Positions 3,961 through 58,858 of a stretch of DNA of 64,000 nt are shown piece after piece. The stretch covers positions 1,200,005-1,264,004 of the forward strand of contig NZ_ATTH01000001.1 of NCBI RefSeq assembly GCF_000419585.1, read 5' to 3'. Both the position numbers and the translations under genes were made by a program. The first letter of the stretch is position 1; each line of letters opens with the position of its first letter. A model generated the notes under the pieces. That model worked only from the letters and a program-made list of their open reading frames with translations, was not told where the DNA came from and made no database searches. The DNA is from Salisaeta longa DSM 21114. GTDB taxonomy: Bacteria; Bacteroidota; Rhodothermia; Rhodothermales; Salinibacteraceae.

Positions 3961-4305
3961 GTGTGTTTCTATACGTTACGTTAACAAGCGGGTGCCGGTT
4001 CGTCAACCAGTTGCTTGCATCTGCAGGGCAATCGCATCAAGTGGGAGTCCGTCCTGGTGCCGTTCAGGAGTAATTTGTACAATGACAATGATATGCCCCG
4101 GAAGCGGGGGCTGAACTTTGAAACGTACAGGGCGGATTCACGATTGCTCATGCGATTGTATTGCTTACATCTGTACCTTCAATGCTACGATTGATTTTGG
4201 TTTTTGATCAGGCGCTCCATTAGCTTACGCCAGTCCATTCACCTGCGGCCTGGAAATGGTCGCCGGACGGTTGCTTGCTGCCTGGTATTTGCTGTTGGTC
4301 TCTTC
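3961..4305. other. Intergenic region upstream of HTCS 1
   Basis: About 345 bases with no convincing gene. It is less GC-rich than its surroundings and must hold the HTCS 1 promoter, but I could not point to a clear -33/-7 pair or to the 21-bp direct repeats seen at the other AraC-linked loci. The HTCS frame stays open back to a TTG at 4204. Confidence 0.4.
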
Positions 4306-7300
4306 ATGTGTCGCCTACGCTTCGTTGCTTTTCTCCTTTGTGCATGTATCGCTTCCTGCCCACCAGTAGCAGCCGCCCAGCAGCGCCTCACCACCGGCCT
4401 TCCATGGATTGAACCGTACGACGCCGACACCTACGCGAGCTGGCGCGGCGACGTTAAGGTCGGCCACCGCCAAAACTGGTCCATAACGCAGGGCCCCAAC
4501 GGCATCCTCTATGTCGGCAACCAAGAAGGACTACTGAGCTTTGATGGGGCGCGCTGGGGTGCGATTCCTGTAGGCGCCTCAGAAGCTACCGGGCACCGGG
4601 GACGACGCGTCGCATCTGTGACGACGACGCCCCCCGAGCATCCCACGCCGGGCCGGGTGCTTGTGGGCAGCGAGGGTACGTTCGGCTGGCTGCGCCCGGA
4701 TTCGCTTGGGCGCATGACGTACGAAGCGCTGTCTGATTCGCAGGCCGTGGCCGATCCGTTTGGGACGGTGTGGAAGACCAGTGCCACGTCGCGGGCAGCC
4801 TATTTCCTTACCACCCAACGCCTCTTTCAGTGGAAAAACGACACGCTGCACGTCTGGCACACCACCGATATCCAGTTTCCGGCGTCTGCCGATACCTCGC
4901 AGCTGGCGCCTCCCGCGGCGCGCGAATTTTTCTTTTCGTTTGTGGTGCGTGACACCCTCTACGTGCAAATGCGCGGCGTGGGCTTACTGTATGCCGACGG
5001 CCATACCCTGCGCCCGCTGCCGGGAGGGCTCTCGCTCGGCGGCCGCGATGGCATCTACGCGTTGCTGCCGTACCGGAATCATCAGCTGCTTATCGGCACG
5101 CGCACCCAGGGGCTGTTCATCTACACGGGCCGCACAATTCGGCCGGTGGACTGGCCCGTGGAGCCGTGGCTGCTGCGCAACCAGTTGTACCATGGCGTGC
5201 GCCTGCCCGACGGTACCTATGCCCTGGGCACGCGGCGCGGCGGCATCCTCCGCATGACGGCACGCGGGGAGCGCCTGTACGTCTTAGATGAGTCAAACGG
5301 GCTGCCGGATCAAAAAGTACACTTCCTGCGGACAGACCGCGAGGGCAACCTGTGGGCCGCTCTCAACCAGGGCATCGCGCGCATCGACGTGGCCTCGCCC
5401 TACACCTATGTAACCAACCATTTGGGCTTCGACACGTCCGTCAATGCCGTTGCGTGGTTCCAGGAGAAACTCATGTTAGGAACCAATGCAGGCGTATACC
5501 GCATGCGCCCCCGGGCGGGCGCCTTCCCGACGTTTGAGCTGCTTCCGTTGCCCACTGTCACGTGTAGTGATATACAACCTACGCCGCAAGGGCTGCTCGT
5601 CGCGCTGCAAACCGGCCTTTACGTGTATACCCCTGAGGAATCGTATCGCGTGCTGTCTACAGCCGATAAAGCAGAACAGGTGGTGCGTACGCTTACGCTC
5701 CCGGCCCCCTCCGCACGGTACGCCTACGTCGGCTTTCGGAATGGCGGTGTGGGGCGGTTGGTCGTGCGCGACGGACGCTGGACGCTCGACCGCATGCTGC
5801 CCGGAACCCACGATGCGTCTGTCACGCACGTGGTCGAAACAGCCGGCGGCACCTTGTGGGCGTCCACCTTTGCCAACGGCGCCCTCCGCATCGAGCACCC
5901 CGAACGCGAAAATCCGCGCGTGACGCGCTGGGGGCTCGATGACGGCTTGCCGGTGCTTATCGATCTGACGCTGCACAGCATCCGCGACACCGTCTATTTC
6001 GCCACGCGCCAGGGCCTCTATCGCTTTGACGCCGCCACGCAACGCTTCCGCCCCGATTCTACGCTGCTTCCGCGCTGGGCCCGTTCGGATCAGTTTGTCA
6101 CGTCGCTGCAGCGGGGTCCGACGGACTGGTTGTGGGGACGCGCGGCCGACATGAACGCGCGCCGTGATGCATCCATCTTGCGCCCCCTCCGCCGTACGGC
6201 GACCGGCTGGCAGCCCGGGCGTCCGGTGGCTGCTACGCGTCCGTCGGTGGTTTACGATCTGGCCATCGGGGCGCGCGGGCTGTGGGTGGCCGTGAACGAA
6301 CCGGGCGCGCTTATTCACGTCAACCGCCGCCGCTTTCGCGCCTTCCCGTGGCCCACCTCCGCACCAGACGCGCTGCCGCCTCCCATCGTGCGCAGCATCA
6401 CTGTAGCGCCCGACGACTCGCTGGTTTATGGCGGCCCGGCGGGACCGGTGCCGCAACTCGCACCCGCCACGCAAAACGTGCGTGTATCGTTCGCGCTGCC
6501 GCTCTTTTCGCACACGGCCCGCGTGGAATACCGCACGCGGCCTGGCCCCACCGCCCGGTGGTCGGAGTGGTCGGCTCGGCCGTCGGTCACCTATGCGCGG
6601 CTGCGTCCGGGCCGCCACGCGATAGCCATTCAGGCACGCACCGCCGCGGGCCGCCGCTCGGCCATTGCCACCCTGCCCATCGTCGTGGAGACGCCCTGGT
6701 ACCGCACGCCGCTTGCGTGGGCCGCCTGGCTTCTGGGGGCTGTGGGCGCCGCGGTTGGCCTGGGCTACGGCGCCGTCCGCTGGCGCACCCGCCGGTTGCA
6801 GCAGCGGCAGGCCGCGCTGGAACGCACCGTGGACGCCCAAACCGAAGCGCTACGCGCCGAGAAGCAACGCACCGCCGATGCCCTTGCCGCCGTGGCCGAG
6901 CAGAAAGACGCCATCGCATCGCTCAACACGACCCAATCGCGCTTCTTCACCAACATCAGCCACGAGTTTCGCACGCCCCTCACCGTAACGCTGGGGCTGC
7001 TCGACACGTGGCGCGCGGCCGACGACCTGCCGGATCAACTCCAGAGCGACCTGCAGCAAATTCTCCACCACAACCGCCGCCTCCTCACGCTCGTCAATCA
7101 GCTGCTCGATATTGCCCGGCTGGAAGCCAACACGCTCGATCTGCGCATGCAGCGCATCGGCCTGCACCCCTTTTTGTCTACGCTGGCGCAGTCGTTTGTG
7201 GGATTGGCCGAGCGGCGCAGCCTCACCTTCCGCCGCACCCTCGTCGATGCCCCGGTGCTGGCGGACCCCGAGCAGTTGGAAACCATCGTGACGAACCTGC

Positions 7301-8532
7301 TCAGCAATGCGTTTAAGCACACCCCGGCCGGTGGCACCGTTACGCTCTCAACCGCTGTGCACGACGGCGCCGTTTGCATAGCCGTAGCCGACACCGGGCC
7401 CGGGATTCCGGCTGCAGCGCAGGAACACATCTTTGAGCGCTTCCACCAGGTTGAGGGGCGCTCGGCCGGTGCAAGCAGCGGCCTGGGCCTCTCGTTGGCC
7501 CGCGCCCTGGCCGAGCGCCACGGGGGTACCCTCACCGTGGAGAGCACACCCGGCGACGGCGCTACGTTTACCCTGGCGCTCCCGGCCGATGCCACCGCAC
7601 TGGTTGGCCGCCCCGATGTGACCTGGCGCCCCGAGGCCGCCGCGCGCACGTCTGCCCCGCTGCGCACCACGCCCCAATCCCTTCCGGCCGCATCACACGA
7701 CGCCACGGCTGCGTCGGCCCCTGATGACGCGGCCGCTGCCGCAGACGACGCGCGCCCGCTCGTTCTGGTCGTCGACGACAACGCCGACATCCGTACCTAT
7801 GTGCGCCGCGTGCTGACGCCGGCCTACCGCGTGATGACCGCACCGGATGGCGCGCGGGCCCTGGCGCATGCCCGTGCCCAGCCGCCCGACTGCATCGTGG
7901 CCGATGTGATGATGCCCACCATGGACGGTACCGAACTGCTCGCCACGCTCCGCGACGACCCGGCCCTCGACTTCATCCCGGTCATTCTCCTCACGGCCCG
8001 CGCTACGCTACCCGACAAGCTAGACGGACTGGCCACCGGCGCCGACGCGTACCTCACCAAGCCTTTTGAACCCAAGGAGCTCCGCGCCCGCATTCAGAAC
8101 CTCATCGACCAGCGCATGCGCCTGCGCAACCGCTTTCAACAAGAGCAACCGGCGCATCTCTTTTCATCCGACGGGCACCCGGGCCCGCCTCCGCAAGCCC
8201 CCAACTTTTTGGATACGGTGCGCGCGGCCATCCGCGACCACATCAGCGACGAATCGTTCGGCGTGCGCGCCCTAGCCGAGGCGGTGGGCGTGAGCCGCTC
8301 GAAGCTGTACCGCGAGCTCAAGGATTACACCGAGCAGTCGCCCAGCGCACTCATCTGGGAGATGCGCCTCGACGCGGCGCGCGCCTTGTTACGCAACGAC
8401 GAGGGCACCATCAGCGAGGTGGCGTACGGCGTGGGCTTTAAGAGCGTCGCCCACTTCACCAACCGATTCCGCGAACGCTTCGGCTATCCGCCGTCGGAGC
8501 TGCAGGCGGCCGCTACAGATGCCGCGTCGTAG
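4306..8532 (+). CDS. Hybrid two-component sensor/regulator (HTCS) 1
   Basis: 1408 residues joining a whole two-component system in one chain. The signal peptide (VAFLLCACIASCPPVAAAQ) leads to a periplasmic beta-propeller of Reg_prop-type repeats (about 30-715), then a Y_Y_Y domain (about 720-795) and a membrane span (about 798-825). The cytoplasmic part has a histidine kinase with the phospho-acceptor in ISHEFRTPL (about 883), ATP-binding boxes NLLSNAFKH, DTGPGIP and GLGLSLA, a receiver domain (VVDDNADIR, phospho-Asp in DVMMPTMDG) and an AraC-type DNA-binding domain (about 1301-1398, SRSKLYRE). HTCS proteins normally sense glycan fragments and switch on polysaccharide-utilization genes, but none is nearby. 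Start: ATG 4306 gives a good signal peptide; a TTG at 4204 is possible. It is convergent with ppdK. Confidence 0.92.
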   Translation: MCRLRFVAFLLCACIASCPPVAAAQQRLTTGLPWIEPYDADTYASWRGDVKVGHRQNWSITQGPNGILYVGNQEGLLSFDGARWGAIPVGASEATGHRGRRVASVTTTPPEHPTPGRVLVGSEGTFGWLRPDSLGRMTYEALSDSQAVADPFGTVWKTSATSRAAYFLTTQRLFQWKNDTLHVWHTTDIQFPASADTSQLAPPAAREFFFSFVVRDTLYVQMRGVGLLYADGHTLRPLPGGLSLGGRDGIYALLPYRNHQLLIGTRTQGLFIYTGRTIRPVDWPVEPWLLRNQLYHGVRLPDGTYALGTRRGGILRMTARGERLYVLDESNGLPDQKVHFLRTDREGNLWAALNQGIARIDVASPYTYVTNHLGFDTSVNAVAWFQEKLMLGTNAGVYRMRPRAGAFPTFELLPLPTVTCSDIQPTPQGLLVALQTGLYVYTPEESYRVLSTADKAEQVVRTLTLPAPSARYAYVGFRNGGVGRLVVRDGRWTLDRMLPGTHDASVTHVVETAGGTLWASTFANGALRIEHPERENPRVTRWGLDDGLPVLIDLTLHSIRDTVYFATRQGLYRFDAATQRFRPDSTLLPRWARSDQFVTSLQRGPTDWLWGRAADMNARRDASILRPLRRTATGWQPGRPVAATRPSVVYDLAIGARGLWVAVNEPGALIHVNRRRFRAFPWPTSAPDALPPPIVRSITVAPDDSLVYGGPAGPVPQLAPATQNVRVSFALPLFSHTARVEYRTRPGPTARWSEWSARPSVTYARLRPGRHAIAIQARTAAGRRSAIATLPIVVETPWYRTPLAWAAWLLGAVGAAVGLGYGAVRWRTRRLQQRQAALERTVDAQTEALRAEKQRTADALAAVAEQKDAIASLNTTQSRFFTNISHEFRTPLTVTLGLLDTWRAADDLPDQLQSDLQQILHHNRRLLTLVNQLLDIARLEANTLDLRMQRIGLHPFLSTLAQSFVGLAERRSLTFRRTLVDAPVLADPEQLETIVTNLLSNAFKHTPAGGTVTLSTAVHDGAVCIAVADTGPGIPAAAQEHIFERFHQVEGRSAGASSGLGLSLARALAERHGGTLTVESTPGDGATFTLALPADATALVGRPDVTWRPEAAARTSAPLRTTPQSLPAASHDATAASAPDDAAAAADDARPLVLVVDDNADIRTYVRRVLTPAYRVMTAPDGARALAHARAQPPDCIVADVMMPTMDGTELLATLRDDPALDFIPVILLTARATLPDKLDGLATGADAYLTKPFEPKELRARIQNLIDQRMRLRNRFQQEQPAHLFSSDGHPGPPPQAPNFLDTVRAAIRDHISDESFGVRALAEAVGVSRSKLYRELKDYTEQSPSALIWEMRLDAARALLRNDEGTISEVAYGVGFKSVAHFTNRFRERFGYPPSELQAAATDAAS

Positions 8533-15065: not shown

Positions 15066-18000
15066 TTAGCGCACGATGACCATCTTGTGCGTGCGCACCT
15101 CGCCGCCCACGCGCAGGCGGCCAAAGTAGACGCCACTCGCGAGGCGCTGGCGCCCGGCGGTCGCGTTCCAGCGCACGCGGTGCCAGCCCGCCTTCTGCGT
15201 GGCATTGACGAGCGTCGCCACGCGCCGTCCAAGCAGATCGTACACATCCAGCCGCACGGGGCCCGCTTTGGGCACGGCGTACTCGATGGTCGTCTGCGTC
15301 CGAAACGGATTCGGGTAGTTGGCGCGCAGGCGCACCGTAGGCGGCACAATGGACGACCAGGCCTCTTCCACAAATGCCGTCGTGCCCATCAGCAGCACAA
15401 GCGGCGTTTGGGCGTGCTCCACCTGCAGCGTAAAGCTTTGGCGCTGCGTCAGGTCGATCATGCGTCCGGTGGCGCGCTCCACGAGGCGCACGGCGGGTAC
15501 GTCGAGGGCATTCACCGTGCGGGCGTCGATGCGCACGTGCGATCCGGCCGGGGCGTGAAGCGTGAGGTTTACGCGTTGCCCGTCGGTACCCGCGGGGCGC
15601 GCCTCATGAGCCAACCAGCGCTGCCGCGGCGACGGCGGATCGGCCACCGGCAGGCGCAGGCGCGGCCCCTCAAACCGGGCGGGCGGCGCCACCTGATCGA
15701 GCGCGTCGCGGCCCACGCGGGCGTCGGGGGCCAGCTGAATGGTGGCCTGCCCCGTGTGCGTGCCGTCGTAAAAGGTGGCCAGGGTCAACGTGCGGGCGGC
15801 GCTGGCTTTGGACGTCGATTTTTCGCTGGACGTCTGCTGCACAAAGGGCGCGCCGGGATACGGCACCACCAGCGAATCCAGTCCCCGGTCATTCAGGAAG
15901 TAGAACGCCTCGCCGGTGGTTGCCGAGGCAAAGGTTTGCGCTCGTGTGTAGCGCCCCGCGAAGCGCCAGAGCGCCTGCAGGTTGGCAGCGTTGGCCTGTT
16001 CCACCGCCGCCCACGCCACGTCTTTGTCCAGCGGGTTGGCGATGATATTCCATCCGTCGTGCACATCAATGACCGCGACGGTATCGCCCCGGAGGTCAAC
16101 GGTCTGCACCGTTTTGTCGACGGTCCAGGCCTCGCGCTGGCGCAGCCAGTAGCCGCGGCCGGGCGTAAACGCCCGATCGGAGGCAGCGTCAATTTCGACG
16201 AACGGATCCTCGGACGTGCCACGGTCGGCGTAGGCCGTCCAGTCGTCGCCGGGCGTTCCGTTAAGGGCTTCGGTGAGGCGCTGTTGTACGGCGCCCGGCA
16301 GCGCGACGAGGCGGAAGTCCTGCGGATCGTCGCCGCCCGCAAACGACCGCTGCGTGTGGGCCGCCACGGTGCGCGGGTAGAGGAAGATGGAGGCCGCCTC
16401 GGAGGGCGCGCTCATCTCGCCGGTGGCCGCGCGGGCCACGAGGCGGTAGTAATGCGTCGCGCCCACCTGTGCGGTGCTGTCGACGTACTGCGACCGCTGC
16501 CCCCGCACCGTCGCCACGCGGGCGCCGGTGGTGTCAAAGCGAGCATTCGAGCCGCGGTACACCTGATACCGCGCCGCGCCTTTGTCCCCTGGCGTCCAGC
16601 GCAGATCCACGTGCTGCTGAGGCGTCGATTGCGCCCATACCTGCTGCGGCGTGCGCACGGCGGGCTCGGGCCGTTCAATGATTGTCGTGAGGCGATACAA
16701 GGCGGCGCGGGCTCCTACGCCGGTTACGCGCACCGTATCGATGTACGTGCCGGGTCGGCGGTCGGCCGCTACGTTGATGGTAACGGTCCGGGACGCGCCA
16801 GGCGCCAGCGGATCGGGGGCTGCGGTCGGCCCTTCGATTGTCAGAGCGTCCCCCGAGGCAGTCAGTCCGTAATCAACCAGCTGGGTGCGGAAGTTGGTGA
16901 GGCGCGTGCTTACTTGTCCCGTCGTCCCGCGCACAAGGCGCAGCGTATCGGCCGCGGGCGTCCACGTAAGGCCGCGCTGCTGAACGGTAAACCGCCAATC
17001 CACCGACGCCGGCAGGGGGTTGCCCGCCCGATCGGTCAGGCTCAGCGGACCCGCGGAATCGCGCTGCACGCCGCCGTCCTCTGTCAACGCAGCCGTCACC
17101 GTCGCAACGAGGCGCTGGTCTTCGGCCTGGGCGAGGGCTTCCGGATCGCGGGGTTGCAGGTAGAGCACGCGGCCGTCGCAGGTGGGCGTGATGGGAATGC
17201 GCCCGCCCACCGTCGAATCGGCGTAGGCCAGGGTCACGTTCTCGTTGGCGCGCACCGTAGCGCAGGCCACGGTTTCGTCGAACGTGACGGCTATATCGTC
17301 GCCGGCTGTCAGCAGACCATCGGCCGGCTCGGGCGTGCCATGCACCCGCGGGCGCTTCGTGTCCACAATAATCCGTCGCGGCTCGGCCACGTACGCACCG
17401 GTCACGGTGCCTTCCGCGTTGGTCGTTTTGGTGTAGGCCGCAATCTCGTACACCCCATCCGGACCGCGGTATTGCGTGCGCTCAAAGTAGGTCGTAATGT
17501 CGCTCAGGTCGCACGCTTCGTTGGCGCAGTCGTTGAGCTGCAGAATGTTTTGCCGCGTCGCCACAAGCAGCGTCTGCGACCAATCTTCCAGCGCTTCAAC
17601 GCCTTGTGTGGCCTTTGCGGCGGCTCCATTCTCGATGCGGCGGAAGAGCGCGCGAGCAGCTTCTCCTTTCAAATAGCGCGGCCCGCGTAGGCTGTCGGCG
17701 GCCGAGCTGTCGCCGTTGGCTGTTGTTTGCAGGGGCGGAAACCCGCCGTTCAGGTCGATGGCCGGACGAATGAAGACGCCAACCTCGGAGAGGCGATGGC
17801 CGGTGTCGGTGGTGTCAACGGAGAAGCCGGAGAAGCTCACGTCGAAGGGCGCGTCTTTTGTGGCCCGGTTGATGGCAAAGCCCGGCGCGGGGCTCTCCAG
17901 CGCAATGGGCGAACTGGGCGGCTGAAAGGTGACGCTGACATAGACGGTGTCGGTGCTGGGCACCTCGCCGCCGGCCGCCAGATCGCACGGCGGATACGCC

Positions 18001-21000
18001 ATTACGGCCAGCGAATCGTAGCGGAAGCCGCGCGCGCCGCGCTCTACGGTCAAGGTGAGGTTGCGCGCCTTCCCGGGGCCCACCTCAAAGGGCAACCCGC
18101 TGCCGCCGCTGATGGCCGCGCCGTTGGCCTTCACGATGGCCCCCTTCGGATTCGATTCGTTCAGGAGGCGCACCGCGTAGGAGCGCGTTTCATCGGACGG
18201 GCTGTCGTTGACGAGCGTCAGCCCAAACGTGGCCGCCTCGTCTGGCGCCACGCTCACTTGCCGGCTGATGCCGTTGCTTACGTTCAGCTCCACCTTGTCG
18301 CGGCGGGTGGTCAGCACGTCGCCCTCAAACGCCGACCATGCGGCCCGATCGGCTGCGAAGGACGAGAACGTATCGAACGGCTCGCGGGCCGGCTCAAACG
18401 GACACGAGCTGGTGCCCGAGCGCGTCTGAAAGACGGGCGTTCCGTAGCGCGGGTCTTTCTTGATGTCCACGGTGTACGAATCCCCCGCGTCGTCGTCGCT
18501 CAGCACGTAGCCCCACGTGCGCTGTTGCTGGTTGCTCTGCTCGCTGCCGGACGCATCCGACGGCGTAATCACCGTCTCGGTGGCCAAAGTCGCTACAGCT
18601 GGTTTCAGCACCCCCACTTCGGCAAAGATGCGCGTAGCCACCGAGGTGAACACCGACGAGTAGGTGGCGCTGCGCTGCGTGCGCGTTTCTTCGTACTGAA
18701 AGCTGTTGCCGCTGCTAAAGCTTCTGTTTTCGATAAGCTCGGCCTCGCTGGCCAGCCGATCGCTCTCGTACAGGATATTTTCCCACAGCGCAATCACATC
18801 GTCGTAATCGAGGCGACCCTCACGATCGTCGGTCTTCAGGTCTTGCAGCTCGGGGATGAGCGTCTCCTCAATGTGTTGGCGGGTGTAGGCATAGGTCGTT
18901 GAAATAGAGTCGGGCTGGAAGGAGACAGTCTGCGACTTTCTGATTTCGCATGCGGCCTTGTCTTCGCCCAGCACCTTGAGCACATCGGAGGTGGCAAATA
19001 CGAAGTTGATGCCCGCCCCCATGAACACATCGGCCGACCGGCCCGTGGCGCCCGGCGCGGCAGACGTTTGCAGGCGCTCGGTGGTCGTCTGACACACTGA
19101 GAAGCGTTCGCCGTTGGTGCTGCTCTGCGACACCGTCACGCCTACACCGCCCACGGCAAGGACCTCGACGTCGGCATAAAAGCCCCACCAGCCCACCTGC
19201 ACCTCGGTGTTTACGCCCGCCGTTACAGCAGTAGCGTTTGAAAGTGCTAGGCCCGACTCCGTCCAGGTGCTGCTGCATACCTCGGTGCCTTCCGAGAGGT
19301 AGCTGTACGACCCATCGCCCGGCGGGTCGCGCAGCACAGCCACCGGCAGCTCTACAGCCCGCGTGATGAACTGCGTGCCTTCGCGCGCCCGCAGGCCCTC
19401 CACAATGGCCCACCGGGTGGTGGCATCGCGGCGGGTGGACACTTCAGCGGTTACCGACAGCGACTTCTGGTACGAGCGGTCGATCCCGTTCACCACGCGC
19501 CCGGCAATCAGGTTGGGCGAGCGTCCGAAGGTGTGGTACGAAATGGCACCGGTGGAATCGGTGGTGGCCGTGACGGGGTCGTCGCCGCGGTCGGCCAGCT
19601 CGTCGTAAACCGTCACCGATGCGTCTTCTACGGGGCACAAGTTGCCGTTGCCGTAGTCTTCGGCCACCTGGATGCGCAGGTTCAGCTCCTGATTGCGCTT
19701 CACCACCGGCACGCTCACGTTGCTGCAACTAGCCGCCTCGGGCCACTCCTTAACGGCCACCTGAATGGGCGCCCGGTAGATGAGCTCCACCGTGGTGTCG
19801 GCCGGCGCAAGGTCGACGTTGATGGCGCCACGCTGGGCAAAGAACTTCTCGATGGCCACCTTCTGGCTGGGGTCGGGCACGTCGCGCACGCCCGTCACCT
19901 GCACCGTGTACTCCTGCGGCGGCAGCTCGGCCGTGAACACGCCTTGCGCATTGGTCTCTACGGTGCGCGTGTAACAGCCGTTGGTGGAGCGAATCTTGAG
20001 CTCCGCGATGCCTACCGAAAAACCGCAGCCGCCGTGCACGTCCACCGTCAAGCGGCGGGTGGTGGTGTCTTCAAAGTTGACGTCGGTGCGGGCGCCCGTC
20101 ACGTCGAGCGTTTGCTGCTCGGGCGTGAAGGTGTGCGTTCCGCTGGCGTTATCATCCAGCACGGGCCGCAGCGTGTGCGTGCCCGGAATGACGCCCACAG
20201 TAAATGCGCCCTGCGTGTCGGTGGATGCTTCCTGCTCGCCGTCCACAAGCATGTTCACGCCCGTCGCCGGACACTGCGTACCGGCGTACTGGATGGTGCC
20301 TGATACCGGCAGGCTGGTTTGGTCAGTGAAGCGGACCTGGTTTTGGACCGGCGTCTGCGGGCTGAGGGTGACGCTGGTGCGCGTGGGCTGAAAGACGTGC
20401 GGGGGTTTCTGCGGAATGACGGCGAACGTGATGCCGTCGCCATACCGCAAGTCGCTGATGCTGTAGGTGCCGTCGGCCCCGGTGCGGACGCACGCGTTGA
20501 GCGGCGCGCCCTGCTCGGCTGGTCCGGCGCCGTTTTGGTACACGGCATAGAACGCGCCGTCGTCGCTGGCCACATTGGCCCCGGCCGTACCGCCGCGCTC
20601 GTCGAGCGGCCAATACGCCATTAGATCGTCCTCGGTGCCGTCTAGCGGCTCAAACCGGTGGGCCTCTACCTGCGCCGCCGTACGATTTGTATGCCACAGC
20701 CGCACGTCGTCAATCTGCCCGGCAAAAAAGTCGCTTGCCTGACGCTCTCCGCCGGCTTCATCGTACTCTTGGCCCAGCGAGAATAGGTCGTTGGCGTCCG
20801 GCCGCACTGATGACGAAATCATAAACGATGCCTGCAGGGTGCCATTGACGATCAGCTGTCCGGTGCCGTCGGCCGCAACGGAAAGCGCTACGTGGTGCCA
20901 GGCGTTCGGCGCAAACGTGTCAGCGCTGGCCTGCGTTTGATTGTCGGTGTCGTAATGCTCAAAGCGTTGCGTGTCGTGGTTGTACCGGAGGGTGAACTTG

Positions 21001-24000
21001 TTTCCGCCCTCGTTTGTGTTCAGGCCCCACACCGCATCTTTGGCGGATCCACCCAAAGCAGGCTTCACCCAGGCAGACAGCGTAAAGGCCGGAGGCAGGT
21101 TGCCGGCAAGATCCTGGATGGCCACATACCCGCCGGCCCCGTCCAGCACGAGCGCCCCGTTAGGACTGGGCGAGAGGCATATGTTAACGCCGGCAAAGGC
21201 GCTGCCGTCTTGTAGTTGGGTACGCCCCGAAATGGCCCCGTCGGGGGCGCGCCAGCCGCGGTTGCAAATGCGATCCGTCTCGAAGCCCACTTCCGTCTCG
21301 TAGGCCGTTACGCAGTACGCGTAGGTATTGCCCGGGGCGGCATCGGTATCGCGGTAACTCGTTTCGTTCGGCCCGGTGGTCGCGATGAGCGTGCCGTCGC
21401 GGTAGATGCGGTAGCCGTCTTCATCGGCCGAGGCGTCGCTCCACGACAGGCTCACGCGGTTGCGGTAGGCCCCGTCGGAGGCCACCACGCCCTCGGGCGG
21501 GGCGGCGAGGCTCGACACGTACACGGCCCCCGTCTCGGAATTGGCATCGGGCGCGCCGATGATCACATCGCCCGCCCCAAAGGTTACCGTCCGCCCAAAG
21601 CCGTCGCCTGCGGGGTCGCCCTCGGCCTGAAAGATGATGGACCGCCCGTAGATGCCGCGGGCGTCGAGTTGAAAGAGATGGGCCCGGCCGCCCGCGGCCT
21701 GCCCCGGGGCGCCCACAAGCAACAACCCGCTAGGCTCGGCGTGGAGATCCGTGCCAAATTGTGCGTTGTTAGTGCCGTCCCCTGCCGGCTGTAGCGTCTG
21801 CACGAGTTCACTTTGGCGGTTAAAGATGTACACCCGCCCGTCGCCGCCGCTCGCGTTGGGCGCACCGACAATGACGTGACGTTCCGTGAGGGCTACGCTG
21901 CCCCCAAACGATTCATCGAAGCCCTGTGCATTACCAGAGACCGAAAACTGTTGAGGCCACGTTCCATCCGGCGCGCGCTCGTGATAATATACAAAATTGC
22001 GGTCGGTGTCGCCAATCAGCACGCGGGTCCCCAGAATGGCAACGGCCGTTTCCTCCCATGGGGTACCGGTGTCTTCGGTCTGAAAAAGCGTCCCATTAAA
22101 TAGGTCTACAGTGTCTCCACTTTTCAAATTACGAATCACAATCGTTCCGTTGAAGCCGCCATACGCCAGAATGGCCAAGCTATCGTCAACGGCTATATCC
22201 ATCTCGTCTCCAACGCCGTTGTCGTAATCGTCGTCTACGATGAGGTCGGGGTTGCCCCACCCATCGTCGGTCGGCGTGAACTGCACGATCTCGTTCACTT
22301 TTGATTCGCCCACGACGATCGCACCATTACCAATGCCAAGATCCAGGCCAAAGCGTCCGTACGAATTGGGACTCACGGCGCCTAGCTCGCCCATCTCTTC
22401 CCAGGTGCCGCCCGTACGTTTGTAGATGTGCGCGGTGCCGGTCAAGTCTTCACGCTGCCCCCGATGGCCAATGCCCAGATACTCATCGGTGGCATCCAAG
22501 TCGTTGCCAAAATACTCGTTGAAGTCGGTGTCGCCGCCTTGAATTTGATTGGCGAGCGCAACGGTTTGGGCTTGCGTAATGCCGCTGCCACTTCCTAGGC
22601 GTTCCCCTTCATCACACATGCGCTCGGAGGCCTCGCCGCTGGCGCTCAGCGTCTCAACACAATAGGATGCTACGGCGCCCGCTGCAAGACTGGCATCGGT
22701 GTACGTGGTTTGGTTGGCGGCCAGGGTGGTAAGCGCCTCGCCATCGCGCAGCACGCGGTATGCATCCTCCCGGGTGGATTGGTCGACCCAGGTGATGGTC
22801 ACCCGATCGGTGTAGCTCGTGGAGGCCGTGACCGAGCCCGGCGGCAGAATCATGGTGGCGCCTTCGTCGCTATCCGCGGTGGAGGTGCCGTCGTCATCGA
22901 AGGCAACCACCTGATACGTGTACGTAACGCCCAGCAGGCCGGTGGTGTCGGAAAAGGCCGTGACGTTGTCGGGCACCTGGCCCGCGACGGCCTCCGTCCC
23001 GTCGGCCGCGATGCGCGTGATGCGATAGCCGTCCTCCGCCGCCGACTGATCTGTCCACGTAACCACCACCTCGGTCTCGGAGGTGCCGTCGCTGGCCTCG
23101 ACGGCCGTGGGCGGCTGCAGCGTCCGCATCCCGGCATCGGCGCCCGCGCTGGTTGCGAGCGTGTCGCCGGCAAAGGCGATGGCCGTCACGACGCTGTAGC
23201 GGTACCGCTGGCCGGGCACGCCGGTGGTGTCGATGAGCACCTGCTCGTTGCGCAGCGTGGTATGCACGAGCGTCGAGTCGGGCGTTGTGGGCTGCCCCTC
23301 GGCCGTGATGGGCCGCCGGTAGATGCCGTAGCCCGCCTCCACGCGCGAGTTGTCGGCCCACTCCACCCGCACGCGGTCTTCGCGCTCGTTGTCGGTGGCC
23401 GTTACGCCGGTGGGCTTGTTCACCTCGCGGCTGCCAAACGTACACGTCCGCGCCGATTCGTTGCCCTGTTCGGTAAAGGCCGACACGCAATATTCGTGGC
23501 GCGCGTTGGGCGGAGCGTTCTCATCGACGTACGTGCGGGTTTGCTTCGAGGGCGTCGCAATGGCCTGAAGGGTCGACGCCCCGGCGTTGCGGCGATAAAT
23601 GCGATAGAAGGAGGAGCGCGTGGCAGGATCGTTCCACGTGATGCGGACCCGGTCTTCGGCCACGGAGTCGGTGGCTGCCACGTTGGTGGGTGCCAGCACC
23701 ACGCTCCGGCGGCCGGTGTCGCAGGCGTCTACGGTGCGGCCGACCGGATCGGTGCCCGTCAGCTGGGTGCGAGCATTGCCGTTGGTGGCCGCTACGGCAC
23801 AGTACGTGTACACCTGTCCGGGTACGGCGGCGCGGTCGGTGTAGGCAGCGGCGTCGGAGGCAAGGGTAGCGACGCGCGTCATGGCGGCGGTGTCGGGCGT
23901 GGCGGTGGGGAGGCCCGGTTGCCGGTAGATCAGATAGCGGGCCTCGGCGGTGGCGGCGTCGGTCCACTGCAGGGCCACCCGGTCGTCGTAGGTCGCGTCG

Positions 24001-25571
24001 GTGGCCTGCACCGCGGTGGGCGCTGCCAGGGTGCCGGCGCTGCCCGAAGCACAGAGGGGCCGCGAGGTGATCGTCCCCTCCACGCGCTGCACGCAGTAGG
24101 TAGCCGTTGCGCCGGGCACGCTCGCTCGGTCTACAAATTGCTGCTGGGACGGATCGTTGAGCGTGGCTATGGACGTGTCGTTGCGCGTAATCACGTAGCC
24201 CGACGTGCCCGGCCCCGGATCCTGCCACGTCACCACGACGCGGTCGCTGTACGTGCCCGTAGTGGCTTCCACCGAAGCGACCGGCACCACCTCGGCCAGC
24301 CGACCGGCATCGCAGACGCGCTGTCCTTCGCCATCGTCATCGTACGGTGCCACGCAGTAGCGATGGTCGCGCAGGGGCGCCAACGCGCTGCTTGTATCGG
24401 CGTACTGCTGCACGTTGGCCTCGAGCACGGCCACCTGCTGCCCGTCGCGGTACACCCGGTAGCCCGCTTCCACTTGCGACGCATCGCGCCACGTCAGCGC
24501 AATCTGATCGGTGAACATCTCGTCGGAGGCGCGCACGTTTGCTGCCGGTCGAAACGAGCGTGTGCCGTCGTCGCAAGCGTAGGTATAGGTTTGGCCGTCA
24601 ATGGTGACGTCCAGGCAATACGCGTAGGCTACGTCCGAGGCGCCCGTGTCGTCGACGTACGTGCTATCGCCGGTGGAGCGGTACGCCAATACGGTGCCGT
24701 TTCGGGTAACACGCAACAGCGCGGCTGCAGGGACAATCGTTGCCGGATCGGGCCACCGCAGCTCCACCCGGTCTTCGTACAGCGCGTCGCTGGCCACCAC
24801 GGGCTGAAGGGCCTGCGGCGTTGGCGCGGGCTGCACGCGGGCGTCGCCCTGCACGGTGCCGTCCAGTCCGCTGGGGCCTCGGTCGGCCAGCACGGTCGCT
24901 CCACTGGCGGTGGGCAGCGTGTTGGCCGGATAGTAAGCAAGCAGGTTTGCTTCGTCACCCTCCAGCGGGTGCCACAGGCTGTGCCGGATGCGATCGCGCG
25001 AGCGGGCGGCCGACCAAAAGCGGATGTCGTCAAGCTGGGCGGCGAGCGTAGCGGTGGGCGGTGCTGCCGCGGCGCCAAGGCGCACCGGGGCCGTGTTTTG
25101 CGCCAGCGGCCCCATAGCTGTGGCCGTGCCATCACGCCTGCCATCCACATACAACGTCTTGTCGCCCGTCGCGGCGTTGTACACCACGGCGATGTGATGC
25201 CACTGCCCGTCGTCTACCGGCGTGCGGCCTTCTAAGCGCGACGTTGAGCCGCCGTGCGTGCTCACAAATACGAGCGTGCCTTCGGCTCCGGACTGCCGGA
25301 TCGCCCAACTTCCACTTCCTTTGGCCACAATGGGCACGTTGGGCGTGGCAAAACCGTCGGCTTTCAGCCAAAACGCAACGGTAAAGCTACCCGTGAAGTC
25401 AAACGCAGCAGACTGAGACAGCACGACCTGATCGTCGGTGCCGTCCAGTACAAGCGCCTGCGCTCCCGACTGTGCGGCCGCCGAAAGCGCGGTACCGCCC
25501 CACACGGCAAGCGCCACCAAAAAACCTGCAACAAAACGACGAAATAGCATGCGACTCGTAGATGCAATCAT
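15066..25571 (-). CDS. Giant secreted multidomain protein (LamG, FnIII, FG-GAP, Ig-like) with T9SS tail
   Basis: 3501 residues with a signal peptide (FVAGFLVALAVWGGTALSAAAQ). Domains in order, approximate residues: LamG/concanavalin-like (37-214); eight FnIII-like repeats starting with variants of ASDxxYxDRVxxxW (254-990); FG-GAP-type repeats (1003-1357); a ninth FnIII-like repeat (1360-1447); a second LamG (1470-1640); carboxypeptidase-regulatory/SpaA-like beta domains (about 1690-1890); a long unassigned region with a helical stretch (1900-2720); a Big_5-type Ig domain (about 2735-2860); one FnIII (about 2975-3057); a GWNIIANPLDKDV module; and a T9SS type A tail (about 3413-3501, VYDLLGRRVATL). 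Seven of nine FnIII-like repeats have a matched cysteine pair. It is likely an adhesin or surface-matrix protein. ATG 25571 is preferred; ATG 25550 and a TTG at 25592 are alternatives. Confidence 0.9.
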   Translation of the reverse strand: MIASTSRMLFRRFVAGFLVALAVWGGTALSAAAQSGAQALVLDGTDDQVVLSQSAAFDFTGSFTVAFWLKADGFATPNVPIVAKGSGSWAIRQSGAEGTLVFVSTHGGSTSRLEGRTPVDDGQWHHIAVVYNAATGDKTLYVDGRRDGTATAMGPLAQNTAPVRLGAAAAPPTATLAAQLDDIRFWSAARSRDRIRHSLWHPLEGDEANLLAYYPANTLPTASGATVLADRGPSGLDGTVQGDARVQPAPTPQALQPVVASDALYEDRVELRWPDPATIVPAAALLRVTRNGTVLAYRSTGDSTYVDDTGASDVAYAYCLDVTIDGQTYTYACDDGTRSFRPAANVRASDEMFTDQIALTWRDASQVEAGYRVYRDGQQVAVLEANVQQYADTSSALAPLRDHRYCVAPYDDDGEGQRVCDAGRLAEVVPVASVEATTGTYSDRVVVTWQDPGPGTSGYVITRNDTSIATLNDPSQQQFVDRASVPGATATYCVQRVEGTITSRPLCASGSAGTLAAPTAVQATDATYDDRVALQWTDAATAEARYLIYRQPGLPTATPDTAAMTRVATLASDAAAYTDRAAVPGQVYTYCAVAATNGNARTQLTGTDPVGRTVDACDTGRRSVVLAPTNVAATDSVAEDRVRITWNDPATRSSFYRIYRRNAGASTLQAIATPSKQTRTYVDENAPPNARHEYCVSAFTEQGNESARTCTFGSREVNKPTGVTATDNEREDRVRVEWADNSRVEAGYGIYRRPITAEGQPTTPDSTLVHTTLRNEQVLIDTTGVPGQRYRYSVVTAIAFAGDTLATSAGADAGMRTLQPPTAVEASDGTSETEVVVTWTDQSAAEDGYRITRIAADGTEAVAGQVPDNVTAFSDTTGLLGVTYTYQVVAFDDDGTSTADSDEGATMILPPGSVTASTSYTDRVTITWVDQSTREDAYRVLRDGEALTTLAANQTTYTDASLAAGAVASYCVETLSASGEASERMCDEGERLGSGSGITQAQTVALANQIQGGDTDFNEYFGNDLDATDEYLGIGHRGQREDLTGTAHIYKRTGGTWEEMGELGAVSPNSYGRFGLDLGIGNGAIVVGESKVNEIVQFTPTDDGWGNPDLIVDDDYDNGVGDEMDIAVDDSLAILAYGGFNGTIVIRNLKSGDTVDLFNGTLFQTEDTGTPWEETAVAILGTRVLIGDTDRNFVYYHERAPDGTWPQQFSVSGNAQGFDESFGGSVALTERHVIVGAPNASGGDGRVYIFNRQSELVQTLQPAGDGTNNAQFGTDLHAEPSGLLLVGAPGQAAGGRAHLFQLDARGIYGRSIIFQAEGDPAGDGFGRTVTFGAGDVIIGAPDANSETGAVYVSSLAAPPEGVVASDGAYRNRVSLSWSDASADEDGYRIYRDGTLIATTGPNETSYRDTDAAPGNTYAYCVTAYETEVGFETDRICNRGWRAPDGAISGRTQLQDGSAFAGVNICLSPSPNGALVLDGAGGYVAIQDLAGNLPPAFTLSAWVKPALGGSAKDAVWGLNTNEGGNKFTLRYNHDTQRFEHYDTDNQTQASADTFAPNAWHHVALSVAADGTGQLIVNGTLQASFMISSSVRPDANDLFSLGQEYDEAGGERQASDFFAGQIDDVRLWHTNRTAAQVEAHRFEPLDGTEDDLMAYWPLDERGGTAGANVASDDGAFYAVYQNGAGPAEQGAPLNACVRTGADGTYSISDLRYGDGITFAVIPQKPPHVFQPTRTSVTLSPQTPVQNQVRFTDQTSLPVSGTIQYAGTQCPATGVNMLVDGEQEASTDTQGAFTVGVIPGTHTLRPVLDDNASGTHTFTPEQQTLDVTGARTDVNFEDTTTRRLTVDVHGGCGFSVGIAELKIRSTNGCYTRTVETNAQGVFTAELPPQEYTVQVTGVRDVPDPSQKVAIEKFFAQRGAINVDLAPADTTVELIYRAPIQVAVKEWPEAASCSNVSVPVVKRNQELNLRIQVAEDYGNGNLCPVEDASVTVYDELADRGDDPVTATTDSTGAISYHTFGRSPNLIAGRVVNGIDRSYQKSLSVTAEVSTRRDATTRWAIVEGLRAREGTQFITRAVELPVAVLRDPPGDGSYSYLSEGTEVCSSTWTESGLALSNATAVTAGVNTEVQVGWWGFYADVEVLAVGGVGVTVSQSSTNGERFSVCQTTTERLQTSAAPGATGRSADVFMGAGINFVFATSDVLKVLGEDKAACEIRKSQTVSFQPDSISTTYAYTRQHIEETLIPELQDLKTDDREGRLDYDDVIALWENILYESDRLASEAELIENRSFSSGNSFQYEETRTQRSATYSSVFTSVATRIFAEVGVLKPAVATLATETVITPSDASGSEQSNQQQRTWGYVLSDDDAGDSYTVDIKKDPRYGTPVFQTRSGTSSCPFEPAREPFDTFSSFAADRAAWSAFEGDVLTTRRDKVELNVSNGISRQVSVAPDEAATFGLTLVNDSPSDETRSYAVRLLNESNPKGAIVKANGAAISGGSGLPFEVGPGKARNLTLTVERGARGFRYDSLAVMAYPPCDLAAGGEVPSTDTVYVSVTFQPPSSPIALESPAPGFAINRATKDAPFDVSFSGFSVDTTDTGHRLSEVGVFIRPAIDLNGGFPPLQTTANGDSSAADSLRGPRYLKGEAARALFRRIENGAAAKATQGVEALEDWSQTLLVATRQNILQLNDCANEACDLSDITTYFERTQYRGPDGVYEIAAYTKTTNAEGTVTGAYVAEPRRIIVDTKRPRVHGTPEPADGLLTAGDDIAVTFDETVACATVRANENVTLAYADSTVGGRIPITPTCDGRVLYLQPRDPEALAQAEDQRLVATVTAALTEDGGVQRDSAGPLSLTDRAGNPLPASVDWRFTVQQRGLTWTPAADTLRLVRGTTGQVSTRLTNFRTQLVDYGLTASGDALTIEGPTAAPDPLAPGASRTVTINVAADRRPGTYIDTVRVTGVGARAALYRLTTIIERPEPAVRTPQQVWAQSTPQQHVDLRWTPGDKGAARYQVYRGSNARFDTTGARVATVRGQRSQYVDSTAQVGATHYYRLVARAATGEMSAPSEAASIFLYPRTVAAHTQRSFAGGDDPQDFRLVALPGAVQQRLTEALNGTPGDDWTAYADRGTSEDPFVEIDAASDRAFTPGRGYWLRQREAWTVDKTVQTVDLRGDTVAVIDVHDGWNIIANPLDKDVAWAAVEQANAANLQALWRFAGRYTRAQTFASATTGEAFYFLNDRGLDSLVVPYPGAPFVQQTSSEKSTSKASAARTLTLATFYDGTHTGQATIQLAPDARVGRDALDQVAPPARFEGPRLRLPVADPPSPRQRWLAHEARPAGTDGQRVNLTLHAPAGSHVRIDARTVNALDVPAVRLVERATGRMIDLTQRQSFTLQVEHAQTPLVLLMGTTAFVEEAWSSIVPPTVRLRANYPNPFRTQTTIEYAVPKAGPVRLDVYDLLGRRVATLVNATQKAGWHRVRWNATAGRQRLASGVYFGRLRVGGEVRTHKMVIVR

Positions 25572-25595
25572 GATTACGTCTTTTGTCTTCAAGAT

Positions 25596-25617
25596 TGGCG
25601 GATCGGCCGATCCGCCA
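25596..25617. repeat. 22-bp perfect palindrome before the giant gene
   Basis: TGGCGGATCGG and its exact reverse complement meet without a spacer. It lies 25 bases before the chosen start codon, inside the likely leader or promoter of the giant gene. It could be an operator for a dimeric regulator or an mRNA hairpin near the ribosome-binding site. Confidence 0.75.
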
Positions 25618-25631
25618 GCTCGTGTAGCATA

Positions 25632-25650
25632 ACCACCACGAAGCGGTGGT
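25632..25650 (-). terminator. Hairpin after the AraC gene
   Basis: ACCACC and GGTGGT flank a 7-base loop region that can extend the stem to 8 bp with a wobble. It follows the AraC stop codon by 24 bases in the direction of transcription. No T-run follows, so it may slow rather than stop transcription into the giant gene. Confidence 0.35.
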
Positions 25651-25674
25651 ACTTCAAGTGATGTGTCAACTTTT

Positions 25675-26046
25675 TTAAGCTACCAGCACCCGTTCGGAAG
25701 AGCACGCGGCGGCATGCTCGGTGGGCGCGCGGTCGTGGTAGTCGCGAAATTGCGTGCTGAAGCTTTGCACGCTGCTGTATCCGACGGCAAAGGCGATTTG
25801 CGTAACCGACTGCTCGGTGCGCAACAACGCCCGTGCGGCCTGCATGCGGCGGGCGCGGATGAGCGCACAGGGCGACACGTCGTAGTAGGCCTGCACGCGA
25901 CGATACAGTGTGCTCCGACTCATGGCGAGATGATGCGCAAGCTCTTGCACGCCAAAGGTGGGCACATCGAGGTGATGCTGAATGGCGTGTTCAAGGCGCT
26001 GGCGAAAAAGGGAGGGATGCTGACGGGCGGGACGCGACGTCGTCAT
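25675..26046 (-). CDS. Orphan AraC-family DNA-binding protein
   Basis: 123 residues, essentially just the double helix-turn-helix of the AraC family. First HTH: FGVQELAHHLAMSRSTLYRR. Second: QIAFAVGYSSVQSFSTQFRDY. There is no sensor domain. The family normally binds two direct-repeat half sites, and a pair of 18-bp repeats with a 21-bp period lies about 92 bases upstream. Its recognition helices (SRSTLYRR; YSSVQSFSTQF) are closer to those of HTCS 2 than to HTCS 1. It sits 103 bases before the giant gene on the same strand, so it probably controls it and perhaps itself. Start uncertain: ATG 26046 is chosen because the extra 16 residues from ATG 26094 look unlike the family. Confidence 0.85.
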   Translation of the reverse strand: MTTSRPARQHPSLFRQRLEHAIQHHLDVPTFGVQELAHHLAMSRSTLYRRVQAYYDVSPCALIRARRMQAARALLRTEQSVTQIAFAVGYSSVQSFSTQFRDYHDRAPTEHAAACSSERVLVA

Positions 26047-26109
26047 GACGAAGGGTGTGGGAAACGTGAGCAAGCAAACGATCCATGACGCCATTGGATG
26101 ACGTCGCTG

Positions 26110-26117
26110 TAAGGATA
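26110..26117 (-). promoter_or_regulatory. Possible -7 box of the AraC gene
   Basis: TATCCTTA on the minus strand resembles the Bacteroidota TAnnTTTG box with two mismatches. It lies just downstream of the paired direct repeats, where an AraC-type activator would be expected to touch the polymerase. Confidence 0.3.
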
Positions 26118-26137
26118 GCGTGCGCTCGTTTGTCTTG

Positions 26138-26176
26138 CGTTGCGTGAGCGTCCCAATCTTTTGCGTGAGCGTGTCA
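26138..26176 (-). promoter_or_regulatory. Paired direct repeats, 21-bp period (candidate AraC operator)
   Basis: On the minus strand TGACACGCTCACGCAAAA (26176 to 26159) and TGGGACGCTCACGCAACG (26155 to 26138) share a 12-base identical core, ACGCTCACGCAA. Their starts are exactly 21 bp apart, the spacing of the araI1/araI2 half sites of AraC. The upstream copy fits TGACAC-N6-GCAAA, also found in the repeats at 58819-58858. Confidence 0.6.
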
Positions 26177-26221
26177 CGGCACGTTTCAACCGCCCGCAGG
26201 GCGCCTGTGGGCCGATTAGGT

Positions 26222-27388
26222 TTATGCGTCTACAGGCGAGGTGCGACGCGTGCAGGTCCGCAGCCGCTGCGCCCACGGATGCGCAGGCGGCTCGGCAGAA
26301 GGCGGCTGCAGCTCATCTACCCAGTGCGCCAGCTGCCGCGCGCAGCTCCACGATAGCGTGACGCCTGCCCCGCCGTGGCCGTAGTTGTGAAGCACGGGAC
26401 GCCCATCGGTCCACGTGTCGCGCGCCAGGCGCAGCGGCGTCCGATGGAACCGATAGCCGACGGTTGTGCGGGCGTCGTGGAGCGCCACCCGGTGGCCGGT
26501 GAGCTGCTCCACCAGGGTTGCGTTGAGGTCGAGCACCGCCGCGGGCACCTCCAGGCCATCAACGATGCGCGTGGGTGGGGGCAACGACGGCCCGCTCCAC
26601 CCCGAGGGCGTCCACGGAGCAGCGGTCTTGGTGCCGCCCAGCAGCCAGGCATCGCCGCGCGGGTAGAAGTACAGCCCGCCGGCGGCCCCATCGGCCCCGC
26701 GGTACTGCGCGGGCGACGGAGTGTAGTTGTACGAGCAGCGCCGCCCGGTGCCCGGAGGCACGCGTACCAGCACGCCCCGGATGAGCTGCAGCGGAGCGGG
26801 ATCGTCAAAGAGTTGCGGCGCCCCGGCGCCCAGCGTGTTCACCATGATATCAGCCGGCAGGGCATCGAGGGAGGCGCGCGTCAGGTCTTGCGGGACGACG
26901 CGACCGCCGAGTGTTTGGTAGAGCCGTCCAAGACGTGCGACGTACACCGGTGCCTCCGCAAAGAACACCCGGAAGGCCCACCCAAAGATGTGCGCCGCTC
27001 CGGGACGGCGCGGCGCTTCCGGGAGGCCGCGGCCGTCGCGGGGAAACGCCCGGAGGTGCCGAAGCGCCTCAGCGTACGCGGGCAACGCCACCGGCGCCTC
27101 GTACACCTCGTAGTGATCCTGCACGCGCACGCCAAACGACGGATCGGTGCACAACGCTGCAAAAAACTTCTGTGCAACGCGTAGATGCGCCGCAACGTGG
27201 TCGATGGCAACGGTATGCGGAATCACGGAGGCCGCCGGGTACAGACTAGCCACCCGCGGCGGCCGCGCATCCCCCGGCCGGTCAGCGCGGGTACGGGCGT
27301 ATATCGTGGTCGCGTAGCCCATTGCTTGCAGCAACACACCGGTCGTAAGGCCACTGACGCCTCCTCCTAAAATTGCAACAGATCTCAT
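26222..27388 (-). CDS. D-amino-acid oxidase-type flavoenzyme
   Basis: 388 residues. It begins with the FAD-binding Rossmann motif VAILGGGVSGL and ends with NYGHGGAGVTLSWSCA, the C-terminal signature of D-amino-acid oxidases (HGGxGxTLSWG). The reaction is oxidative deamination of D-amino acids to 2-oxo acids with O2 giving H2O2. The middle residues (PRVASLYPAA; QRFHRTPLRL-like segments) match the family's layout. The ATG at 27388 starts right at the Rossmann fold. It is transcribed away from the small gene at 27800 and has its own TAnnTTTG box. D-aspartate oxidase is the main alternative and sequence alone does not settle the substrate. Confidence 0.85.
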   Translation of the reverse strand: MRSVAILGGGVSGLTTGVLLQAMGYATTIYARTRADRPGDARPPRVASLYPAASVIPHTVAIDHVAAHLRVAQKFFAALCTDPSFGVRVQDHYEVYEAPVALPAYAEALRHLRAFPRDGRGLPEAPRRPGAAHIFGWAFRVFFAEAPVYVARLGRLYQTLGGRVVPQDLTRASLDALPADIMVNTLGAGAPQLFDDPAPLQLIRGVLVRVPPGTGRRCSYNYTPSPAQYRGADGAAGGLYFYPRGDAWLLGGTKTAAPWTPSGWSGPSLPPPTRIVDGLEVPAAVLDLNATLVEQLTGHRVALHDARTTVGYRFHRTPLRLARDTWTDGRPVLHNYGHGGAGVTLSWSCARQLAHWVDELQPPSAEPPAHPWAQRLRTCTRRTSPVDA

Positions 27389-58818: not shown

Positions 58819-58858
58819 TGACACAAATATGCAAACATCTGACACAAATATGCAAACA
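58819..58858 (+). promoter_or_regulatory. Paired 19-bp direct repeats, 21-bp period (candidate HTCS 2 operator)
   Basis: TGACACAAATATGCAAACA occurs at 58819-58837 and again, identical, at 58840-58858, with two bases between. The 21-bp period equals two helical turns and matches AraC half-site spacing. It lies 200 bases before the giant gene and 182 bases after HTCS 2. Confidence 0.7.

Follow-up and report, generated by a model that had tools for sequence, protein, structure and literature searches.

A tandem 21-bp repeat pair upstream of a solo AraC-type gene in Salisaeta longa as a probable HTCS/AraC-class operator

The pair of direct repeats at positions 26140 to 26176 of the window, which is the whole stretch of 64,000 nucleotides from Salisaeta longa DSM 21114 analyzed here, is with a probability of about 75% an HTCS/AraC-class operator (HTCS, hybrid two-component sensor-regulator) at a promoter that is probably activated from it. 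As judged by sequence comparison, sites of this type precede large genes of a predicted secreted type and often adjoin HTCS genes. The operator class is already known; its putative targets here, a solo AraC gene and genes for giant surface proteins, are unusual.

RESULTS

A repeat pair with a 21-bp period

The 12-mer TTGCGTGAGCGT, which reads ACGCTCACGCAA on the minus strand, was present exactly twice, at positions 26140 to 26151 and 26161 to 26172, with starts 21 bp apart. The 18-mers starting at 26138 and 26159 were identical at 14 of 18 positions, and this confirmed the preliminary description of two imperfect 18-bp repeats on the minus strand, the bounds of which were improved to 26140 to 26176 (Table 1). 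Read on this strand, the site consists of TGACACGCTCACGCAA, a spacer of 5 bp (AAGAT), and TGGGACGCTCACGCAA, followed after another 22 bp by TATCCTTA at positions 26117 to 26110, so that the −7-like element described past the repeats was also found. The distance of about 92 bases to the AraC start holds for the ATG at 26046, which yields a protein of 123 aa. Starting at a further in-frame ATG, at 26094, would lead to 139 aa, and the 48-nt extension displays a weaker coding character, with a first-position GC of 0.38 vs 0.67.

Evaluation of the repeat needs to consider the repeat content of the window. Five exact runs of at least 12 bp were observed at spacings of 8 to 44 bp compared to 0.4 expected, and this excess leaves the repeat by itself weak, or suggestive only, even if only 2 of 400 simulated windows contained an exact repeat of 12 bp or longer with a spacing of 21 bp. 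At this spacing, the window contains three runs of 11 bp or more, the longest of them, with 19 bp, at position 58819. The pair at 26140 to 26176 occurs a single time in the 3.4-Mb genome when up to three mismatches are allowed.

Table 1 Features of the window surrounding the repeat pair and its sister site
Feature	Position	Strand	Remarks
HTCS, 1,442 aa	4204..8532	+	Candidate trans regulator; DNA-binding domain closest in own genome to motif-adjacent HTCSs
Giant secreted-type ORF, ~3,500 aa (3,508)	15066..25571	−	Matches to LamG, fn3, and, weakly, a C-terminal sorting domain; may be the second gene of the unit
Perfect 20-bp palindrome GGCGGATCGGCCGATCCGCC	25597..25616		In the gap from the AraC stop (25675) to the giant-gene ATG (25571)
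Solo AraC-type DNA-binding protein, 123 aa	25675..26046	−	HTH_18 as the only domain; sensor and receiver absent
−7-like element TATCCTTA	26110..26117	−	Starts 38 bp downstream of the copy 2 start
Putative operator copy 2 (promoter-proximal) TGGGACGCTCACGCAA	26140..26155	−	21 bp from copy 1; repeat and cross-genome matrix
Putative operator copy 1 (promoter-distal) TGACACGCTCACGCAA	26161..26176	−	Repeat and cross-genome matrix
HTCS, 1,393 aa	54455..58636	+	Immediately upstream of the sister operator
Putative sister operator, TGACACAAATATGCAA twice, 21 bp apart	58819..58855	+	Between HTCS 54455-58636 and giant LamG/DUF11 ORF

The motif in related genomes

The search pattern was TGACAC-N6-GCAA occurring twice, 21 bp apart; copy 2 of the 26140 pair deviates from this motif by possessing TGGGAC instead of TGACAC. 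With up to two mismatches, the tandem pattern identified 12 sites in 4 of the 27 genomes of the family, compared to none for the reversed-pattern control, and with up to one mismatch, 3 of the 114 genomes of the order were positive, all of them within the same family. The final group was also composed of 12 sites, after the site in genome G025 had been removed and one extra site in genome G002 added: three from S. longa, seven from G002, which is evidently Longimonas halophila of the phylum Rhodothermota, and two from G009. The removed match (L082:3345-3445) belongs to a plasmid iteron array with a 21-bp period (TTGACACCAAAAAGCTAACAG) before the gene for a Rep3 plasmid initiator on the opposite strand, which mimics the operator pattern, and this indicates that the 21-bp period is not HTCS specific. 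Matches with three mismatches at C1:1109855 of the S. longa genome, in G001 and G016, and at G009:C30 were dropped as likely due to chance.

A weight matrix was trained solely on the nine foreign sites, leaving out those of S. longa. These nine sites were partly paralogous and from one genus, and with the resulting matrix, the 26140 pair was the best match of the window with a score of 47.7, followed by a runner-up with −13.5, while the top score of 30 simulated windows was 2.9. It is this cross-genome test that makes the pair solid. Conservation of the motif before genes in related genomes, which is characteristic of an HTCS-class operator, was found for the 26140 site, and on the level of sequence, the tandem motif recurs across genera.

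The promoter element

The consensus of the Bacteroidota-type −7 element is TAnnTTTG, a string also present in papers on Bacteroides. A TAnnnT motif was present at all 12 sites of the group, 37 bp (3 sites) or 38 bp (9 sites) from where copy 2 begins, which is the constant distance to a promoter element characteristic of HTCS-class operators; none of 2,000 shuffles reached the observed column count, and the 12 sites, being partly paralogous, do not represent 12 independent events. With the TA taken as start of the −7 element, copy 2 would abut the −33 region, which would be the position of an AraC-type activator. Such an operator abutting the −33 region and activating is the usual AraC arrangement, and with the proximal copy located there, binding would most likely activate transcription. 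In the region from 25540 to 26300, a scan with the sigma-70 consensus gave no match, and a scan with the terminator consensus gave no T-run terminator.

Genes adjacent to the sites

Immediately downstream of eight of the 12 sites were large ORFs (784 aa or more in the available sequence), most of which displayed matches or homology to LamG, sorting domains, or the like. The remaining four were the 26140 site, which precedes the solo AraC gene followed by the 3,508-aa ORF, L079:9440, positioned 469 bp before another site, the site of L080 near a contig end, and that of L081, followed by a 220-aa ORF for which Pfam gave no match. An HTCS gene was found directly upstream of four sites, which were L051 of G009, another genus, where TGACACGCTCACGCAACAGATTGACACGCTCACGCAA adjoins the HTCS gene, two sites of L079, and the window site at 58819. 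This adjacency is usual for the class, albeit not required, and some sites of G002 were without an adjacent HTCS gene. It was also absent from the 26140 site, where the nearest HTCS genes in the window are the two listed in Table 1.

Another occurrence of the pair at 58819 to 58855 (TGACACAAATATGCAAACA) precedes a second giant ORF of the S. longa genome, at C1:1268622. The giant genes behind both sites probably share one operator type.

The 21-bp spacing at HTCS loci

Pairs with at least 13 of 17 positions alike were counted in intergenic DNA of HTCS loci. In 33 of 42 loci (99.7 kb), 20 pairs occurred at 21 bp compared to at most 10 at any other spacing between 14 and 35 bp, with one 21-bp pair counted twice due to an overlap of L033 and L083 and two pairs contributed by the three-copy array of L095. 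A replicate with 60 further loci (84 kb), picked among the long-frame matches listed, yielded 25 pairs at 21 bp vs at most 9 at other spacings; here, the three-copy array of L139 adds two pairs, and a few pairs resemble low-complexity sequence. A recognized AraC-type domain was present in the frames used at 89 of the 93 loci of both counts. The L139 array (L139:2794-2852) consists of three tandem 21-bp copies of the TGAGACGAATGAAGTGC type adjoining an HTCS gene, and L095 likewise contains three copies. A weak 21-bp pair at L206:7042 is located between an HTCS gene cut by the contig end and a 2,233-codon frame, in the same layout as in the window.

A direct repeat with about 21 bp between the copies, as present at 26140, is the arrangement of the class. 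The HTCS operators of Bacteroides have already been predicted as direct repeats with an average distance of 21 bp by Ravcheev et al. 2013 (PMC3878776), where paired conserved sites, for instance, two 12-bp sites with a 9-bp spacer, have the same geometry as the pair here, and where HTCS regulons also include distant operons. The targets given there are polysaccharide-utilization genes with SusC/SusD (PMC3878776), whereas here, in a relative of Longimonas halophila (Rhodothermota), a solo AraC gene takes this place together with giant ORFs of the LamG/sorting-domain type. A report of such an operator in Rhodothermota was not found in searches of open-license PMC text. In the case of E. coli AraC, the direct half-sites araI1 and araI2 are 21 bp apart with the proximal one beside the −35 region. 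The 26140 site likewise has two direct copies at 21 bp and a proximal copy near the promoter, but AraC possesses its own sugar-binding dimer domain and the 123-aa protein does not.

The solo AraC gene and the giant gene

The small protein matched HTH_18 with 75 bits over profile positions 1 to 76 of 80 and contains both helix-turn-helix units, as AraC/XylS-type proteins do. Sensor, histidine kinase, and receiver, which define an HTCS protein, are absent: Pfam matches within the 139 aa were to HTH models only, and the whole open frame of 184 codons is too short for these domains. Its closest PDB match was 12aw_A, a “hybrid two-component system protein,” and SoxS chains were also matched. Solo AraC activators of the MarA/SoxS type are short two-HTH-domain proteins that bind a single box as monomers. 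The small protein likewise consists of the two-HTH domain alone; it differs in being associated with a tandem pair and in resembling HTCS output domains. A search of genome contigs with the small protein returned 16 relatives, and no close ortholog was among them (best E-values to partial matches with 44% identity), so there is no footprint for the same gene in a sister species. Just past the AraC stop, a lone TTGACAC (25663 to 25669, minus strand) is present without a 21-bp partner among the pairs listed.

Solo AraC genes were also present in L173 (121-aa frame) and L145 (132 aa), where each follows an HTCS gene with a 21-bp pair in between. These pairs were alike at 14 and 13 of 17 positions, respectively, with TAGTTTT 38 and 39 bp downstream of the copy 2 start. 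The two proteins were 54% identical to each other and 37 to 45% to the neighboring HTCS domains. This suggests that the arrangement of a solo AraC gene behind an HTCS gene with a 21-bp pair recurs. No additional solo gene with a clear 21-bp operator was found at eight other loci with short AraC-domain frames: three contained HTCSs cut by contig ends, four other AraC types, and the eighth, L090 of G009, a 202-codon frame.

The start of the giant ORF appears signal peptide like by eye. It is separated from the AraC stop by about 100 bp with the palindrome GGCGGATCGGCCGATCCGCC, a strong predicted hairpin in a stretch of pronounced predicted RNA structure (z of −3.3). The palindrome occurs once in the genome, plus one match with three mismatches. 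Copies of the operator in relatives are located directly before giant genes, which makes control of the giant gene plausible, and the balance tips slightly toward its being served by the 26140 operator, too, by read-through past the hairpin.

DISCUSSION

In the proposed mechanism, two DNA-binding domains would occupy neighboring positions on the same DNA face, separated by two helix turns, with the proximal copy abutting the −33 region of a promoter with the −7 element TATCCTTA. We infer protein binding, activation, and the identity of the binder. The small AraC gene would be the first target and the giant gene behind it the next one. A chance or nonregulatory repeat instead is very improbable: the window is richer in exact repeats than expected (5 vs 0.4) and iteron arrays such as that of L082 may share the 21-bp period, but the cross-genome matrix score, the constant spacing to the −7 element, and the single genomic occurrence of the pair contradict this explanation.

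The most likely binder would be an HTCS acting in trans, in the first place HTCS 4204-8532, with the small AraC gene as a mere target or a damping competitor, to which we assign not quite an even chance. The S. longa genome contains ten HTH_18 genes, eight of them HTCS-size frames and the others a 321-aa frame and the small AraC gene. Among these, the DNA-binding domain of HTCS 4204-8532 was the best match to the motif-adjacent HTCSs, with 52.9% and 51.0% identity to the L051 and L079 domains, compared to 41% of the small protein to the L051 domain, and the domain tree joined it with both (support 96/92), while the small protein clustered away from them with other HTCS domains (support 84/98, open fork). 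The G002 sites without a neighboring HTCS gene also agree with control in trans. Against it stand the distance of about 17.6 kb between HTCS gene and site, the sensor domains, which are not orthologous (only about 29% identity to those of L051 and L079), and the first recognition helix, SRSKLYRE instead of SRSTLYRR in the motif-adjacent HTCSs. The small protein possesses the latter sequence, but its second recognition helix fits less well than that of HTCS 4204-8532, and the cases are too few to claim a rule linking helix residues to site halves. Binding of the 123-aa AraC protein alone to the pair at its own promoter, turning on itself and the giant gene, is a more tentative explanation. It would agree with the position of its gene directly downstream of the operator, the two complete helix-turn-helix units, the shared first helix, and the two other solo AraC genes under 21-bp pairs; besides the lower identity and the different place in the tree, it is opposed by the lack of a receiver or dimer domain to join two copies and by L051 and L079, where the motif precedes the target without an intervening solo AraC gene. 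Another domain, or both proteins, would account for the rest. On the basis of these comparisons, HTCS 4204-8532 is at least as good a candidate binder as the small AraC protein.

The preliminary description had an AraC-type regulator acting on its own gene and on the giant gene. An AraC-type operator at a −7-like element stands, as indicated by the occurrence of the motif elsewhere, the constant TAnnnT spacing, and the peak at 21 bp, and the giant gene may plausibly be controlled as well. The small AraC protein as the binder does not stand in the same way; HTCS 4204-8532 is closer to the L051/L079 domains. The matrix scan of the window revealed no such operator beside HTCS 4204-8532. The sensors of the L051 and L079 HTCSs were nearer to HTCSs of other genomes, although their DNA-binding domains group with that of HTCS 4204-8532, and swapping of output domains is possible.

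As a broader and rather unlikely interpretation, HTCS-type operators of this lineage may control giant cell-surface proteins as a regulon instead of loci for sugar uptake, and a sensorless AraC protein placed under one of them may act on the same site, either keeping the giant gene on as a relay or damping the HTCS signal as a competitor. A solo AraC gene in this position poses the question of whether signals of hybrid two-component systems are relayed or damped by output domains lacking a sensor. With TGACAC-N6-GCAA twice at 21 bp and TAnnnT 37 to 38 bp on, the operator pattern is readable, so that further targets can be found, and the operator would connect genes for giant surface proteins, which otherwise lack an explanation, with an identifiable class of environmental sensors.
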